From: Fidelibacterota bacterium
GTDB lineage: Bacteria > Fidelibacterota > UBA8477 > JABMPR01
Assembly (NCBI GenBank): GCA_024278595.1
Contig: JAJRSW010000121.1
Span: 1-42,166 of the forward strand
Reading direction: 5' to 3'
Length of the DNA: 42,166 nt
Positions within the stretch are counted from its first letter, which is position 1. Each line of letters starts with the position of its first letter. Under the pieces are notes generated by a model. That model did not search any database. It was not told the origin of the DNA and saw only the letters and a program-made list of their open reading frames with translations. The position numbers were made by a program, and so were the translations under genes. Positions 7,978 through 20,724 of this stretch are shown in pieces.

Positions 7978-9159
7978 ATGAACAGAATTATCACAAAGAG
8001 CAGCCTGATCCTGATCTTATTTAGTTTAGGTTTGCTGGGGTGCAAGAGCAACGCCATGGACCCAATCTATAATCCAAATGAGTTCACACTTTTGATCGCA
8101 GCCAGCAATGATGGGGAAGTAGGACCCTGCGGCTGAAAGTCTAATCCACTTGGCGGTCTTGCCAGGAAGCAAACTGTTTTAAAGGGATTGATGGAAACTG
8201 AAGCCACTTATTTTATTGATGCTGGTGATGCATTTTTCAAAAACCCCTACGTTGTTCAATCTAAACGAGAAAAGTTAACTGCCACAGCTGAAGCGATCTT
8301 ACAATCCTATAATATTATGGGATGTCAGGTCATGAATATCGGCATGAATGATCTGGCAGCCGGTTATGATTTTATTGAAAAATTGCAGGATCAGGCCGAT
8401 TTCCCATTCATCTCAGCCAATATAATGCAGGTAAATACTGAAAAGCTACTGTTCGCAGAAAGTGCCATTATCAGGACTCAAGCTAAGACGCTTGGATTTG
8501 TGGGGGTGACCATTGGCGACAAGCGCCTGAAAGAATTTACTTTTTCTGACCCCGTAGAAGCAGCCAATAGAGCAGTGGCAGCATTAAGGGATAAAGTGGA
8601 TCTGGTCTTTTTATTGGCAAATGTGGATGATCGGACCGAGACAACCCTGACCAAGGAAGTGGCAGGTATTGATTTTCTGATCCGTTCAAAGACCGGTTCG
8701 ATGTACCGTAATCCCAAAGAAAAAAATGATGTTGTCATTATCCGCAACGGGAAACAGGGTAAATATGCTGGTGCGCTTAAGATCACTCAGGTAGATAAGG
8801 TCTCAAAATTGAAAAATGTGAGTGCGCAAAGAACCCGGATAAAATTTACCGATAATAGACTCCAGGCTTTGTCCAGGGATCTGGAAGTGGGCCAGACTCT
8901 TGAAGAACGTTATGCCGAAGATGAAAAAAGACTCCAACTGATCAAACGTCTCCAAAAGGAGAAACAGGATAATATGGAGCTGATCAAAACCCTGAAGAAT
9001 AGCTATTTCTATGAGCCGATCCCCCTAAATGATAAGGTGGAAGATGCACCTGAGGTTGCTGAGATCGTGGCTGATTATATGCCAAAAAAGAATAAAACCA
9101 GTACTAAAGACCAGGCGAAAGCTGCTCTAAAAGAAAAGCAGGCACCCAGGATCAAATAG
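7978..9159 (+). CDS. UshA/5'-nucleotidase-like lipoprotein, predicted selenoprotein (UGA = Sec at codon 53)
   Basis: ATG 7978 opens a lipoprotein signal peptide (MNRIITKSSLILILFSLGLL, then GC; lipobox Cys22). The frame then meets TGA at 8134-8136 inside GEVGPCG-(TGA)-KSNPLGGLARK and continues uninterrupted to TAG at 9159, giving 393 residues with Sec53. The first ATG after the TGA (8188) would give 323 residues lacking the leader and the GGLAR motif. The layout follows the UshA/metallophosphatase family: GGLAR(K), then FIDAGDAFF, MNIGMNDLAAGYDFI (where GNHEFD-like sequence is usual), FPFISANI, TLGFVGVTI. Several classic metal ligands look absent, so catalysis is doubtful. From memory, relatives carry CxC at the CG-stop position, so this would be CxU, a possible redox or metal site at the envelope surface. 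The last 90 residues are charged and probably coiled coil. A SECIS-like hairpin lies 18 nt downstream of the UGA. A simple nonsense mutation is the alternative. Confidence 0.82.
8134..8166 (+). promoter_or_regulatory. Bacterial SECIS element (UGA plus downstream hairpin)
   Basis: The UGA at 8134-8136 is followed by a hairpin: 5' arm CUUGGC (8149-8154), loop GGUCUU (8155-8160), 3' arm GCCAGG (8161-8166), giving six pairs including one U-G. The loop begins 18 nt after the UGA. As I recall it, the E. coli fdhF SECIS also begins its GGUCU apical loop 18 nt after the UGA, and the loop G and U are the SelB contacts. The hairpin also encodes the family motif GGLAR, so some base identity is protein-constrained, but the complementary arms are not required by the protein. 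Confidence 0.78.
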
Positions 9160-9182: not shown

Positions 9183-9217
9183 AAAAAGAGGCTGAATTAT
9201 TCAGCCTCTTTTTTTTT
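9183..9217. terminator. Bidirectional intrinsic terminator
   Basis: A perfect 10-bp stem AAGAGGCTGA (9186-9195) / TCAGCCTCTT (9201-9210) with loop ATTAT is flanked by an A-run on the left (9181-9187) and a T-run on the right (9209-9217). It therefore works on both strands: for the 7978-9159 gene on plus, and for the tRNA on minus, which converge here. Confidence 0.9.
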
Positions 9218-15411: not shown

Positions 15412-16434
15412 ATGGCCGCTAAATTTTCAAATTTTCGAAACTGGATGGGTGTCGATATAGCAGTTGACCTCGGGACAGCGAATACGCTGATCTATGTCCG
15501 TGGACAGGGAATTGTTTTAAATGAACCATCTATTGTTGCAAGATCAAAATCTACCTCCAAGGTCATTGCAGTTGGTAATGAGGCAAAAAGGATGGTGGGG
15601 AAAGTTCACCAGGAGATCGAAACGATCCGGCCTCTGCGGGATGGAGTTATTGCTGACTTTGAAATGGCAGATGGGATGCTCCAGGGTTTTCTCAACAAAC
15701 TTCCCATTTCCAAATTAGCCCGGCCTAGAATGGTCATCTGTGTTCCATCTGGAATTACCGAGGTCGAGAAACGCGCAGTTAAGGAATCTGCAGAACGGCG
15801 AAATGCCAGAGAAGTATTTCTCATCGAAGAACCAGTGGCTGCTGCCATCGGGATCGGGATCGATATTAGTGAACCAGTCGGCAATATGATTGTTGATATC
15901 GGTGGTGGCACAACCGAAATTGCCATTATCGCTCTCAACGGTATTGTCACTAAAGAATCATTGCGCGTTGCTGGCGATGAGATGGATGAAGCGATCATCC
16001 AGCATTTTAAACGGGATCATAATCTATTGATCGGTGAGCGTACGGCTGAGAGTATCAAATGTAATGTCGGCTCAGCTTTGAAGGGGACTGATTACAAGCT
16101 CTCAGTTAAAGGCCGTAATATGATCGCCGGCATCCCCAAGACCATCGAAGTATCCTCCTCTGAAATTCGGGACGCGCTCCGCGATACCATCGACCTGATC
16201 GTGGATGCAGTCAAGATGTGCCTGGAACGGACACCACCTGAATTGAGCTCAGATCTGTTGGATCGCGGTATTATTCTTACTGGTGGCGGTGCCCTGCTCC
16301 AGGGCTTTGACAAACGAATGCGCCTGGAGGTTGACCTGCCGGTAAATGTCGCTGAGTATCCACTCCTATCCATTGTTCAGGGGACTGGCAAGGTCCTGGA
16401 TGGGATTGAGCGGTTTGAGGATGTCCTTTATTGA
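15412..16434 (+). CDS. mreB: Rod shape-determining actin homologue MreB
   Basis: Forms membrane-associated filaments that organise lateral cell-wall synthesis. The 340-residue protein has actin phosphate-1 motif VDLGTANTLIYVRGQG (about 17-32), MVICVPSGITEVEKRAV, phosphate-2 motif DIGGGTTEIAIIAL (about 161-174), and adenosine motif ILTGGGALLQG near 285. First gene of the mreBCD-mrdA-rodA run; ATG 15412 is preceded by GAGGGCAG. Confidence 0.97.
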   Translation: MAAKFSNFRNWMGVDIAVDLGTANTLIYVRGQGIVLNEPSIVARSKSTSKVIAVGNEAKRMVGKVHQEIETIRPLRDGVIADFEMADGMLQGFLNKLPISKLARPRMVICVPSGITEVEKRAVKESAERRNAREVFLIEEPVAAAIGIGIDISEPVGNMIVDIGGGTTEIAIIALNGIVTKESLRVAGDEMDEAIIQHFKRDHNLLIGERTAESIKCNVGSALKGTDYKLSVKGRNMIAGIPKTIEVSSSEIRDALRDTIDLIVDAVKMCLERTPPELSSDLLDRGIILTGGGALLQGFDKRMRLEVDLPVNVAEYPLLSIVQGTGKVLDGIERFEDVLY

Positions 16435-16456
16435 TCCAAATGACCTAGGATAGACC

Positions 16457-17248
16457 TTGGCTGCCTCCGCATCTCCACTTTCTAGCTACAAATCACTGGT
16501 AAACCTGCTGGCCAGCACTGTCCTGTCTTTGATGATCATTGCCTCCAATACCAGTGTTCCGGTGATCCAGGTCCGTAATCTTGTTTTAGATGGTTCAGCC
16601 TATCTCTATGTACCGATCCAGTGGATCGAAACACTTTTTACGCTGGAACATGACTATAAAATATTGCAGCAAAATTATATCAAAGCCCAGATCGAGTTGA
16701 ACAAACACAAAACCCTGGTCCAGGAGAATCAACGACTGAGAAATTCCCTGGGATTCAAACGGGAGAAGAGTTTTAATGTCATCCCCGCCAATGTATTGTC
16801 AGATGTGGGTAGCCATACCATGAATAGCTTAACAGTCGACCAGGGCTCAGATGATGGTGTCATGCTCTTAGCGGGTGTCGTGGATGCACGCGCCCAACTG
16901 GTAGGCAAGATTGTAGCTGTTGCCCCCAATACGGCATTGGTTCAATTGGTGAATGACAAGAACTTCAGAGTCTCTGTCAGGGAAATGCGTTCCCGTAATG
17001 TAGGTATCTTGAGTTATTATTTAAAAAAGGGCTATGTCATCCAGGATGTGCCCAAGAATGCAGAAGTAATCGCTGGAGACTCAGTTGTGACCTCCGGATT
17101 TAGCGATATTTTCCCAGAGCATATCTTTGTTGGGTGGGTCTCCGAAATTTCCCCAGTTATCGAAGATTATGTCAAATCCATTCAAGTTGACCTGGCCACC
17201 GATTTTAACCGCTTAGAAGAAGTATTTATCCTCGAGTCAGATGATTGA
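16457..17248 (+). CDS. mreC: Rod shape-determining protein MreC
   Basis: The periplasmic scaffold that couples MreB to PBP2. The 263-residue protein has one N-terminal membrane segment (about 15-35), a coiled coil (about 65-100: HDYKILQQNYIKAQIELNKH then KTLVQENQRLRNSLGF), and the twin beta-barrel MreC core (VIPANVLSDVG, VGKIVAVAPNTALVQLVNDK, AGDSVVTSGFSDIFPEHIFV). It starts at TTG 16457 with AGGA about 9 nt upstream. Its 3' end overlaps mreD by 8 nt. Confidence 0.93.
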   Translation: MAASASPLSSYKSLVNLLASTVLSLMIIASNTSVPVIQVRNLVLDGSAYLYVPIQWIETLFTLEHDYKILQQNYIKAQIELNKHKTLVQENQRLRNSLGFKREKSFNVIPANVLSDVGSHTMNSLTVDQGSDDGVMLLAGVVDARAQLVGKIVAVAPNTALVQLVNDKNFRVSVREMRSRNVGILSYYLKKGYVIQDVPKNAEVIAGDSVVTSGFSDIFPEHIFVGWVSEISPVIEDYVKSIQVDLATDFNRLEEVFILESDD

Positions 17249-17717
17249 TATCATTAAATATAGCGTGCTGGGCCTCCTGACCCTCATCTTCCAGTGGATG
17301 CTGGGGGATATTTTCAGTATCTATGGGGTGACGCCCAGTTTTCTGGTAATCTTTATCATTTATGTGGGCTTGACCCACAGTCAACTACAAGCGATCTGGT
17401 TGGGATTTATGCTTGGATTTATTATTGATTCCCTGACTGGCACTCAGATGTTGGGAATAAGTGCGTTGGCTTTATCCATCGTTGGATATCTGGCGGGTAT
17501 CTTTCATGGTCGCATTGTCCGCATTCCCGTTATCGTTCAATATTTGCTCCACACCGGTTTTCTGCTGGTCTTTTTTATCTTGACCGTAATGATATCACTT
17601 CAAGATTCGCAGTGGTCTGCGGGCAATATCGTTTTTCTGATCCTGTTACCCAAAACCATCTATACACTGGGGCTCTTAAGCGGAATATTTTTTCTCCTGC
17701 GTGTTGGGTCAGATTAG
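17241..17717 (+). CDS. mreD: Rod shape-determining protein MreD
   Basis: A 158-residue integral membrane protein with about five hydrophobic helices and the MreD-type motif W-x-G-F-x-L-G-F-x-x-D (WLGFMLGFIIDSLTGTQMLG). Sequence similarity in this family is always weak, so the call rests on size, topology and its position between mreC and mrdA. ATG 17241 overlaps the mreC end. Its TAG stop (17715-17717) shares a G with the GTG start of PBP2. Confidence 0.88.
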   Translation: MIDIIKYSVLGLLTLIFQWMLGDIFSIYGVTPSFLVIFIIYVGLTHSQLQAIWLGFMLGFIIDSLTGTQMLGISALALSIVGYLAGIFHGRIVRIPVIVQYLLHTGFLLVFFILTVMISLQDSQWSAGNIVFLILLPKTIYTLGLLSGIFFLLRVGSD

Positions 17718-19495
17718 TGCTTCAAGGGAAGAATATTGTAGATGGCTGGCGCTCTCTGTTCATCCATGGTTTGCTGGCTCTCCTGTTCCTGGTCCTTATG
17801 GGCCGCTACTACTATCTTATGATAGTTCTCCACGAAAAATATGCTGAAAAGGCTACTGCAAACCATATCCGAGCAGTACCCGTGTTGGCCTCAAGGGGTA
17901 TCATCTACGACCGTGATGGCAATATACTGGTTGACAATGCCCCCAGTTATACCATCTCTGTCATTCCAAAAGAGATCAAGGACCATCCGGAATCTTTAAA
18001 TCGATTATCAAATATTATGGGCATCTCGGTGGAGGAGATCAATCGCCGCATTTTAAAAAATCGCCGCGGATCCTTTGCCCCTGCTAAAGTATATAGCCGA
18101 GTTCCTTTTGAAAAGATATCCCACTTGCAGGAACATCGCCTGGAACTCATTGGTGTTACCTACAGTATTGAACCGATCCGGAGCTACATCTCTGAATTGG
18201 ATCTTTCACACGCTTTAGGATACACGCGGGAGATCAATCGGGATGATCTCGATCGCTTTAAGAAGGATTTGGATTATCAACCGGGTGATCAAGTTGGCTG
18301 GAAGGGGCTTGAGAAATATTACGAGCCAGTCCTCCATGGGAAGCGTGGATTTCGCTATATTGAGGTCAATGCTCTGGGGCAGGAGATGGGTGATGTTGAC
18401 AGTCACACTCCTATCATTCCCATACCCGGTCATGATATTTTCCTGAGTATCGATCCTTTTATTCAAGCTGCTGCTGAGAGAGCCCTGGCTGATTCTTCAG
18501 GCTCGGTCATCATCCTGAATCATAGAACCGGCGAGATTCTGGCCTATACCAGTCGTCCTGGTTACGATCTGGAGATGTTGTCCGGTCGAATTTCATCCAA
18601 GGATTGGAATGCCCTGATCCAGGATCCACGCAAGCCTTTATATGATCGCGGCATCCAAGGGCTGTACCCAGCTGGATCCACCTTAAAACCGCTGGCGGCC
18701 TTGTATTCATTGGAAAATCATTCAAACGCCCGGGAACGCACCTATACCTGCCGCGGGAGCTATCGACTTGGGAACAGATCATTTGGATGCTGGAAAAAAG
18801 GGGGACACGGAAAGGTCAACCTTCATGAAGCAATCCAGCAATCCTGTAACGTATATTTTTTTAACCTGATCCAGGACATTGGGTTGGAAGGTTGGGCCTA
18901 CATGGCCAGGGCTTTTGGTTTAGGTCAGGTCACCCATATTGATATTCCAGGGGAAAATAAGGGTCTGGTTCCAGATACCCGCTTCATGAACCGTAAATAC
19001 GGGGTGAGAAAATGGACCAGGGGTAACCTGCTGAATATTGTGGTTGGCCAGGGAGATGTCCTGGTGACCCCGCTTCAGTTGGCTCAATTTGCGGCAATAC
19101 TGGCTCAAAAAGGCGTTCGCCATGAACCTCATTTTGTACAGCAGGTGGTCGCAAAAAATGGTGAGATCATTCAAAAATATGAACCAAGGAGCGAACTGAG
19201 CGTCAGTGCTTCAGAAAAGTCCTGGGAATTTATCCACCAGGCCATGTGGGCTGTCGTGAACAGCCCCAAGGGAACGGCCAAAGCAGCTCGCCAACGTAAT
19301 TGGGATATATACGGAAAGACTGGTACAGCCCAAAATCCACATGGGGAGGATCATGCCTGGTTCATTGGCTTCAGTCTGGATGATCGCTATCCCTATGCCT
19401 GGGCAGTCCTGCTTGAGAATGGTGGCGGCGGGGGTGGAAAAGCAGCACCACTGATCGCTAAAGTGCTCCGGGATATTGCGAGAAAAGACCTATGA
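17717..19495 (+). CDS. mrdA: Penicillin-binding protein 2 (elongasome transpeptidase)
   Basis: Class B PBP that cross-links peptidoglycan with RodA during side-wall growth. Starting at GTG 17717, which overlaps the mreD stop, it is 592 residues: one membrane anchor (about 14-36), the pedestal domain (ASRGIIYDRDGNILVDNAPS; then about 60-240), and the transpeptidase domain with SxxK S321-TLK, SxN S376-CN and KTG K534-TGTAQ. The frame extends to 17612 within mreD, but that part is an overlap artefact. Its stop overlaps the rodA start (ATGA). Confidence 0.95.
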   Translation: MLQGKNIVDGWRSLFIHGLLALLFLVLMGRYYYLMIVLHEKYAEKATANHIRAVPVLASRGIIYDRDGNILVDNAPSYTISVIPKEIKDHPESLNRLSNIMGISVEEINRRILKNRRGSFAPAKVYSRVPFEKISHLQEHRLELIGVTYSIEPIRSYISELDLSHALGYTREINRDDLDRFKKDLDYQPGDQVGWKGLEKYYEPVLHGKRGFRYIEVNALGQEMGDVDSHTPIIPIPGHDIFLSIDPFIQAAAERALADSSGSVIILNHRTGEILAYTSRPGYDLEMLSGRISSKDWNALIQDPRKPLYDRGIQGLYPAGSTLKPLAALYSLENHSNARERTYTCRGSYRLGNRSFGCWKKGGHGKVNLHEAIQQSCNVYFFNLIQDIGLEGWAYMARAFGLGQVTHIDIPGENKGLVPDTRFMNRKYGVRKWTRGNLLNIVVGQGDVLVTPLQLAQFAAILAQKGVRHEPHFVQQVVAKNGEIIQKYEPRSELSVSASEKSWEFIHQAMWAVVNSPKGTAKAARQRNWDIYGKTGTAQNPHGEDHAWFIGFSLDDRYPYAWAVLLENGGGGGGKAAPLIAKVLRDIARKDL

Positions 19496-20724
19496 AATTA
19501 AGAACTTATATCATTGAACGTTTTCGTGAATTTGAATGGAGCACCCTGGCCCTGGTGCTCCTCCTGTCTGCCAGTGGTCTGGTTGCAATTTATAGTATCG
19601 AGGTTCAGCATGGAACAAGCGCCGGCTATTTTCTAAGGCAGAGTATTTGGACCATTCTGGGATTGGGATTTTTCTTTGGAGTTTTCTTATTGCCCCGCAA
19701 AGTGATTCATAATGTGGCTTATATACTCTACGGAATCGGGATCATCCTGCTCCTTATACCCATTGCGATGAAGGATGGGGGAGCGGTAAGTCGCTGGATC
19801 ACCATCGGTAGTATTGGCCTGCAGCCTTCAGAATTCATGAAGATATTTCTGTTGTTGGGGTTGGCAAAATATTTTGCTGATCATAAACGGCGTTTATCTA
19901 CTGTAAAAGAATTAATGACGCCTTTTGCCATGACCATTGTGCCAACCATACTGGTTCTGGTTCAACCGGATCTGGGAACGGCTCTGGTCTATTTTGGAAT
20001 GTTGATCGTCGTGATCTTCTGGGCCGGGATCAGACCCCTCCATTTCTTTTTGCTGCTGGCTCCGGCCGTGTCCATGATCGCTGCTTTTCAAACCCTGTCT
20101 TTTTTCCTCTGGATGGGACTTATTATTGTCATCCTGTATTTTGGAAATCTGCCCTTTTGGACCAAGATCTTCAATTTTAGTATCAACGTAGCCCTGGGTG
20201 GGATCACAAATTTGTTGTGGGCACTGCTGAAACCTTACCAGCAGCAGCGTATTCTTTCTGTACTGGATACTGATTCTGATCCACTTGGAGCAGGTTATCA
20301 GGTGTCCCAATCCCTCACGGCATTTGGATCAGGAGGACCCTTTGGGAAAGGCTTTGGAGAAGGGACTCAAACCCATTTAAAATTTCTGCCTGAGCAGCAC
20401 ACCGATTTTATCATGACAGTTATCGGTGAAGAATTTGGCTTTATTGGTGTGCTGATAGTCATTGGACTATTTTATCTCCTCATCGCCAAACTAATCAACC
20501 AGGCTTATAGCAGCAAATATCGATTTGATAGTGTCATCCTCATCGGGTTTGCCGCCGTGTTGGTGTTTCACACCTTCGTGAATCTAGGGATGATCGCCGG
20601 TATTATGCCTGTGACCGGAATCCCCCTACCCTATATCAGCTATGGTGGTTCATTTATGCTCACTACCATGATCCTGGCTGGATTATCAGTAAATATGGGC
20701 ACCCTGAGACGGGCTTCGCGTTAG
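19492..20724 (+). CDS. rodA: Peptidoglycan glycosyltransferase RodA (SEDS)
   Basis: Polymerises lipid II into glycan strands with PBP2. The 410-residue protein has about ten membrane segments and SEDS motifs: GGAVSRWITIGSIGLQPSEF, VLVQPDLGTALVYFGML with the catalytic-type Asp, and HTDFIMTVIGEEFGFIGVL, then GIPLPYISYGGSFML. It is about 30-40 residues longer than E. coli RodA; the extra length lies around helices 6-8 (about 185-250). Last gene of the mre run. Confidence 0.95.
   Translation: MKLRTYIIERFREFEWSTLALVLLLSASGLVAIYSIEVQHGTSAGYFLRQSIWTILGLGFFFGVFLLPRKVIHNVAYILYGIGIILLLIPIAMKDGGAVSRWITIGSIGLQPSEFMKIFLLLGLAKYFADHKRRLSTVKELMTPFAMTIVPTILVLVQPDLGTALVYFGMLIVVIFWAGIRPLHFFLLLAPAVSMIAAFQTLSFFLWMGLIIVILYFGNLPFWTKIFNFSINVALGGITNLLWALLKPYQQQRILSVLDTDSDPLGAGYQVSQSLTAFGSGGPFGKGFGEGTQTHLKFLPEQHTDFIMTVIGEEFGFIGVLIVIGLFYLLIAKLINQAYSSKYRFDSVILIGFAAVLVFHTFVNLGMIAGIMPVTGIPLPYISYGGSFMLTTMILAGLSVNMGTLRRASR

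Follow-up and report, generated by a model that had tools for sequence, protein, structure and literature searches.

A UshA-like lipoprotein of Candidatus Neomarinimicrobiota with a predicted Cys-Gly-selenocysteine site and a degenerate metal centre

The gene at positions 7978–9159 of the window (the whole 42,166-nucleotide stretch of DNA that was analysed) raises two questions: how the TGA at its codon 53 is read, and what a protein that resembles the 5'-nucleotidase UshA might do with the residue encoded there. The reading frame begins with ATG and ends with TAG, and, as the earlier note had observed, it is clean except for a single internal stop, the TGA at 8134–8136. The features of the locus are as follows.

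7978–9159, + strand: UshA-like gene, predicted to encode a selenoprotein; 393 codons plus TAG, with the TGA at codon 53 read as selenocysteine
8032–8043, + strand: lipobox LLGC with the predicted lipid-anchored Cys22, by eye from the translation
8080–8787, + strand: metallophosphoesterase-type (UshA N-terminal) domain with a degenerate metal site, predicted; limits set by us from the model strands
8128–8136, + strand: Cys51-Gly52-Sec53 (C-G-U) motif, with the UGA at 8134–8136
8149–8166, + strand: SECIS-like hairpin, stem CTTGGC/GCCAGG, loop GGUCUU
9187–9217, + strand: terminator-like inverted repeat with a T run, 3' of the gene, read directly from the sequence

The in-frame TGA as a predicted selenocysteine codon

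The translation around the codon (EVGPCGU-KSNPLGGLAR) places the UGA inside a Pro-Cys-Gly-U motif. By eye, the N-terminus carries a signal sequence with an LLGC lipobox ending at Cys22, the leader that had been proposed before the UGA; this column holds Cys in 81 of 111 homologues and a gap in 23, and the product is predicted to be exported and lipid-anchored. As the earlier note had claimed, TGA is not reassigned here, because 11 of the 33 window ORFs taken as genes end with it. A gene finder blind to selenocysteine would either truncate the gene after codon 52 or begin it 3' of the TGA. Elsewhere in the window, a weak candidate at its left edge (position 129) has an in-frame TGA with 42 and 63 open codons on either side, and ORFs at 15412–20724 that look by eye like MreB, MreC, MreD, penicillin-binding protein 2 and RodA lie in a row, presumably as a cell-shape cluster.

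The source genome (3.26 Mb in 124 contigs, 94% complete) contains the selenocysteine machinery: tRNA-Sec (72 bits, above the Rfam cut-off, with the same call by ARAGORN), SelA (509 bits), SelB (326 bits, about 1.6 kb from SelA on the same contig) and SelD (376 bits). The selD gene (L054; C105:4113-5033 of the same genome, minus strand) has one in-frame TGA of its own, which makes it a second likely selenoprotein gene; SelD itself is a listed selenoprotein in the 2008 ocean metagenome study (PMC2398784). Across the phylum, Candidatus Neomarinimicrobiota, tRNA-Sec was detected in 148 of 245 genomes, so the phylum appears to use selenium widely.

Codon 53 was compared across 111 homologous loci of the phylum, namely the window's own, 30 returned by the phylum scan and 80 others chosen for spread from among the matches listed, including all nine listed rows without an internal stop; 102 have TGA and 9 have Cys, counts from a picked sample that are not a phylum frequency. 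The matches listed are the better-scoring ones. Families f5 and f14, where all 6 sampled loci have Cys, include many genomes that score below them. In a second sample of 80 loci, from a scan of named genomes, the motif is present in 80 of 80, with UGA in 42 and Cys in 38. Its 38 phylum loci, many apparently on contigs already present in the first sample, divide into 37 UGA and 1 Cys, and its 42 outside loci (Deltaproteobacteria, Oligoflexia, Myxococcota, Zymogenaceae, Desulfobulbaceae and others) into 5 UGA and 37 Cys. The selenocysteine thus aligns, as proposed, with the second Cys of a CxC motif in relatives, and a codon for neither did not occur at this column in the 111 and 80 loci. A FastTree tree of 150 tips (the 111 loci and 39 of the 42 outside loci), rooted by us on haem-bearing Cys forms and with several low supports, gives nine Sec/Cys changes by Fitch counting and a Cys root.

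The match between codon and machinery is imperfect. With strict filters, tRNA-Sec is detected in the genomes of 78 of the 102 UGA forms and undetected for 24, all of them draft genomes of 55–98% completeness, one of 98%; these 24 weigh against a clean correspondence of UGA and tRNA-Sec. Six of the nine Cys forms lie in genomes without detected tRNA-Sec and three in genomes with it, and the association of UGA or Cys with tRNA-Sec presence has a Fisher p of 0.011, uncorrected for kinship. The Cys forms L027, L078 and L080 stand in genomes with tRNA-Sec; L080 is a second, Cys copy beside the UGA copy L081 in one genome, and L027 still has a GGTCT loop, which would fit a recent change from UGA.

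A SECIS-like hairpin across UGA homologues

The earlier note had described a SECIS-like hairpin beginning 18 nt after the UGA. Its 6-bp stem and GGUCUU loop are present, with CTTGGC at 8149–8154, GGTCTT at 8155–8160 and GCCAGG at 8161–8166, but 18 nt is the spacing to the loop, and the stem starts after 12 nt. The SECIS hairpin of E. coli fdhF has a GGUCU-type loop just after the UGA, an arrangement shared by the window hairpin. RNAfold adds a G8155-U8160 pair and gives −8.9 kcal/mol. Against synonymous recoding, the window's 24-nt hairpin has p = 0.01; against dinucleotide shuffles, however, its 45-nt stretch has z = −0.19, and 81 of 200 shuffles are at least as stable, so single-sequence folding was discarded as uninformative. 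With one sequence not decisive, the case for the putative hairpin is built on comparison across homologues.

That comparison separates the two forms. A GGTCT loop at +21 from the U of the UGA occurs in 99 of 102 UGA forms versus 1 of 9 Cys forms. Over +12 to +36, UGA forms average −8.85 kcal/mol and their synonymous recodings −3.8 (mean z −2.48, with p ≤ 0.05 in 72 of 102), whereas Cys forms give −3.69 versus −3.93 kcal/mol recoded (z 0.13; 0 of 9 at p ≤ 0.05). The signal in UGA forms is weaker over a wider stretch, +9 to +42 (z −1.52, 45 of 102), and the control stretch +42 to +60 shows no excess stability against the same recoding (z 0.05, 4 of 102). The hairpin occurs in two registers, with a loop of 5 or 6 nt; among 68 distinct hairpin windows, 29 fit one register better, 37 the other and 2 tie, all six stem pairs form in 50, and 65 have 5 or 6 of 6 pairs when the better true register is taken for each sequence. 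In 37 sequences, the third-position pair 17–29 varies in a compensatory manner (GC 18, AT 11, CG 4, TA 3, GT 1), and in either register group 0 of 1000 shuffles reach the observed pairing, a count in which the relatedness of the sequences is uncontrolled. A slid-register control gives one register (sum 42) that pairs 78.2% of cells, above the true registers (74.8 and 70.6% over all 68), but whose innermost pair would have to enclose a loop of a single nucleotide. Stability relative to recoding and the third-position compensatory changes across UGA homologues thus bear out the SECIS-like hairpin.

A true stop or a sequencing error at 8134, in a pseudogene or with a restart at TTG 8188, can be set against this, and a 323-codon ORF from that TTG does exist mechanically. 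Such a reading is very improbable, as 102 of 111 homologues have TGA at this codon and the rest have Cys, a conserved, covarying hairpin follows it, and conserved protein flanks it on both sides. The recurrent TGA, the hairpin and the use of TGA as a stop elsewhere led us to reject a pseudogene, a true stop or a reassigned codon. Taken together, the selenocysteine machinery, the UGA/Cys column and the covarying hairpin uphold the earlier proposal, and the UGA at 8134 almost certainly encodes selenocysteine, which would make the protein a selenoprotein.

A known family with a predicted UshA-type fold and few metal ligands

The earlier note did not recall this family among described selenoproteins, but it has been on record since 2008. 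The best NCBIfam match of the window protein is NF041198, UshA_like_PCGU (227 bits, 3.3e-67); the protein shares its PCGU motif, the Sec/Cys position and the UshA-type domain, but matches model positions 15–393 of 519, without the C-terminal region, and lies under the curated cut-off of 275 bits, which is exceeded in 1 of 245 phylum genomes. Matches to this model at E ≤ 1e-20 occur in 216 of the 245, an upper bound for the gene because the count also takes in matches to the model's haem part. NF049981 (UshA-like selenoprotein family 2) matches weakly (51 bits, far under its cut-off of 140), and its motif is listed as CxxU, in contrast to CxU in the window protein. The 2008 ocean metagenome selenoproteome lists 'COG0737, UshA-like, CxU', with 76 selenoproteins in 20 samples and 92 Cys homologues; its discussion names UshA-like, SelD and FdhA as exceptions among the major families that lack a conserved Cys-based redox motif, and yet the table of the same paper gives CxU for UshA-like (PMC2398784). 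The family is listed again in PMC9312934 and PMC13188914. It is thus known, and on the basis of the NCBIfam models and these listings we rejected a new selenoprotein family.

The AlphaFold2 model of the window protein has a pLDDT of 90.3 and a pTM of 0.87, and a Foldseek search finds the UshA N-terminal fold in it, with E. coli 5'-nucleotidase (UshA) as top match (E 1.7e-19, TMq 0.54). Profile matches reach 1.2e-32 for nucleotidases and 4.9e-21 for SoxB. The N-terminal domain fold is common to UshA and other 5'-nucleotidases (2ush, 3ivd, CD73), but the metal ligands are not conserved in the window protein, and no 5'-nucleotidase C-terminal substrate domain is recognised, because Pfam returns no match at E ≤ 0.001. 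The thiosulfohydrolase SoxB (2wdc) belongs to the same superfamily (Foldseek E 7.1e-17), yet at 46 bits the window protein falls short of the TIGR04486 cut-off of 550.

We aligned 55 sequences, the window protein and 54 of the 80 second-sample loci. E47, C51, G52, C/U53, G59, G60, R63 and G83 are invariant in all 55. The binuclear metal ligands of UshA, which we take to be D41, H43, D84, N116, H217, H252 and Q254 (UshA numbering), fall at S43, D45, D84, M123, N215, K238 and G240 of the window protein, which thus keeps one of the seven, D84; we placed these columns from profile alignments, and motif I may shift by one residue in some rows. Across the 55 rows, the number of ligands kept is 0 in 7, 1 in 17, 2 in 7, 3 in 11, 4 in 8 and 5 in 5, and no row keeps 6 or 7. 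Because 8 rows keep four ligands and 5 keep five, residual metal binding is possible in these relatives. Where the C-G-U motif stands with respect to the former metal site is estimated from the alignment and the strand positions; it would lie in the loop after the first strand, and Cys51-Gly52-Sec53 would there form the conserved functional site. The body of the protein would be a UshA N-terminal domain that is probably no longer a phosphatase, because most ligands are lost and the C-terminal nucleotide-binding half is missing.

Neighbours, haem-bearing relatives and a possible redox role

A rhodanese gene lies near the selenoprotein gene on the same strand in 57 of the 111 loci (45 downstream, 12 upstream), and 55 of the 111, which are related and so not independent, have both a rhodanese and a MauE-like protein nearby; where the downstream sequence extends for 1.3 kb or more, 47 of 83 loci carry both. 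Among profile matches, a C....C motif occurs in 52 of the 57 rhodaneses and CGC in 54 of the 55 MauE-like proteins, counts that lean upward in that the profiles were built from ORFs picked by such motifs. The two neighbours are absent from the fetched flanks of the window's genus and of the 9 Cys forms, and the pair was not found in those of the 42 loci outside the phylum. At the window locus, the neighbours are an aminopeptidase-P-like ORF upstream (by eye) and a tRNA-Gly downstream, the only hit in an Rfam scan of the window. The source genome does hold an adjacent rhodanese and MauE (Pfam Rhodanese 2e-16, MauE 7.3e-25) on another contig (L138 1019-2007, C29), unlinked to the gene; it is in other families of the phylum that the pair is linked to the UshA-like gene. 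Such a pair is present side by side, in one copy, in 18 of 19 genus genomes including the source; the remaining genome is 63% complete and also without a selenoprotein match, and this co-occurrence within one genus has little power.

Outside the phylum, four CxxCH motifs follow the C-G-U/C motif in 32 of 42 loci. None follow it in the 38 phylum loci of the second sample, some of which end at contig ends, nor does the window protein contain CxxCH or the haem-binding region of NF041198 (model 400–519), the C-terminal part of which matches cytochrome c554-like ORFs elsewhere in the source genome. The sampled forms of the phylum are thus without the tetrahaem part that most relatives sampled outside it carry; together with the poorly conserved metal ligands beside an invariant C-G-U/C site and the rhodanese/MauE neighbours, this is what we add to the description of the family. 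Two UGA forms outside the phylum (L180 and L192, from Myxococcota/Myxococcales MAGs) are also without CxxCH after the motif, and their architecture resembles the Neomarinimicrobiota form.

Could the protein be a working metallophosphoesterase, either a 5'-nucleotidase or a SoxB-like hydrolase, whose Cys51/Sec53 bind metal or tune the site? The UshA fold and the matches to nucleotidases and SoxB speak for this, as do the residues at three ligand columns (Asp in 32 of 55 rows at D84, His in 27 at H217 and in 23 at H252) and the 5 rows with five of seven ligands. We nevertheless consider it unlikely: a single row of the 55 has Asn at the Asn116 column, none of the ligand columns is invariant whereas the C-G-U/C site is, the window protein keeps only D84, and the C-terminal nucleotidase domain goes unrecognised by Pfam at the threshold above. 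CxU and CxC are plausible soft-metal ligands, and a Cys-Gly-Sec site that binds or senses Hg, Cu or As in the cell envelope, with no redox relay, is a further option, in keeping with the metal site that the earlier note had offered as an alternative. It appears quite unlikely, as the four CxxCH of 32 of 42 outside relatives and the rhodanese/MauE neighbours both point to electron or sulfur transfer, and no metal transporter was seen by eye among the listed, mostly unannotated, neighbour clusters.

A redox site rather than a phosphatase is the likely reading, because the C-G-U/C site is invariant, metal ligands are lost, and haem motifs or rhodanese and MauE accompany the protein. The best explanation overall, on balance a probable one, is a periplasmic lipoprotein with a selenol/thiol redox site on a degenerate UshA fold. 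The UGA at 8134 would be decoded through the GGUCU-loop hairpin by the genome's tRNA-Sec, SelA, SelB and SelD. From what the sequences carry (selenoprotein features, ligand loss, predicted fold and neighbours) we infer the redox role, partners, substrate and electron path. C51 and U53 would most likely cycle between a selenenylsulfide and the reduced selenol/thiol, or carry a sulfur atom, perhaps in sulfur-linked electron transfer. Within the phylum, the partners could be the rhodanese, which is anchored in the membrane, and the CGC-bearing membrane protein of MauE/DoxX type, a partnership that we propose tentatively; through them, sulfur or electrons would move between the quinone pool and some sulfur or disulfide compound of the periplasm. 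In most of the relatives sampled beyond the phylum, the four CxxCH haem motifs may stand in place of such a partner.

In the open-licence literature, no link of rhodanese or MauE to the UshA-like selenoprotein and no paper joining Neomarinimicrobiota and selenoproteins was found, and the papers listed that mention MauE and rhodanese together comprise one on Streptococcus. UshA, rhodanese and selenoprotein are mentioned together only in the selenoproteome papers (PMC2398784, PMC9312934, PMC13188914), as far as the available parts of that literature go, and one paper on Marinimicrobia and selenocysteine, in the passages available, gave no mention of UshA.

It is conceivable, if rather doubtful, that selenoprotein, rhodanese and CGC-bearing MauE together make up a so far undescribed sulfur or disulfide:quinone oxidoreductase of the periplasm that depends on selenium and is widespread among the Neomarinimicrobiota. 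The fold of a dead phosphatase would in this case have become a selenol/thiol carrier, and a fused tetrahaem domain would do the electron step outside the phylum. In the parts of the lists available, UshA-like has stood among selenoproteins since 2008 as a table row without a function; the loss of ligands next to a strictly kept C-G-U/C site, along with the neighbouring rhodanese and MauE genes, makes a testable redox hypothesis of that label.
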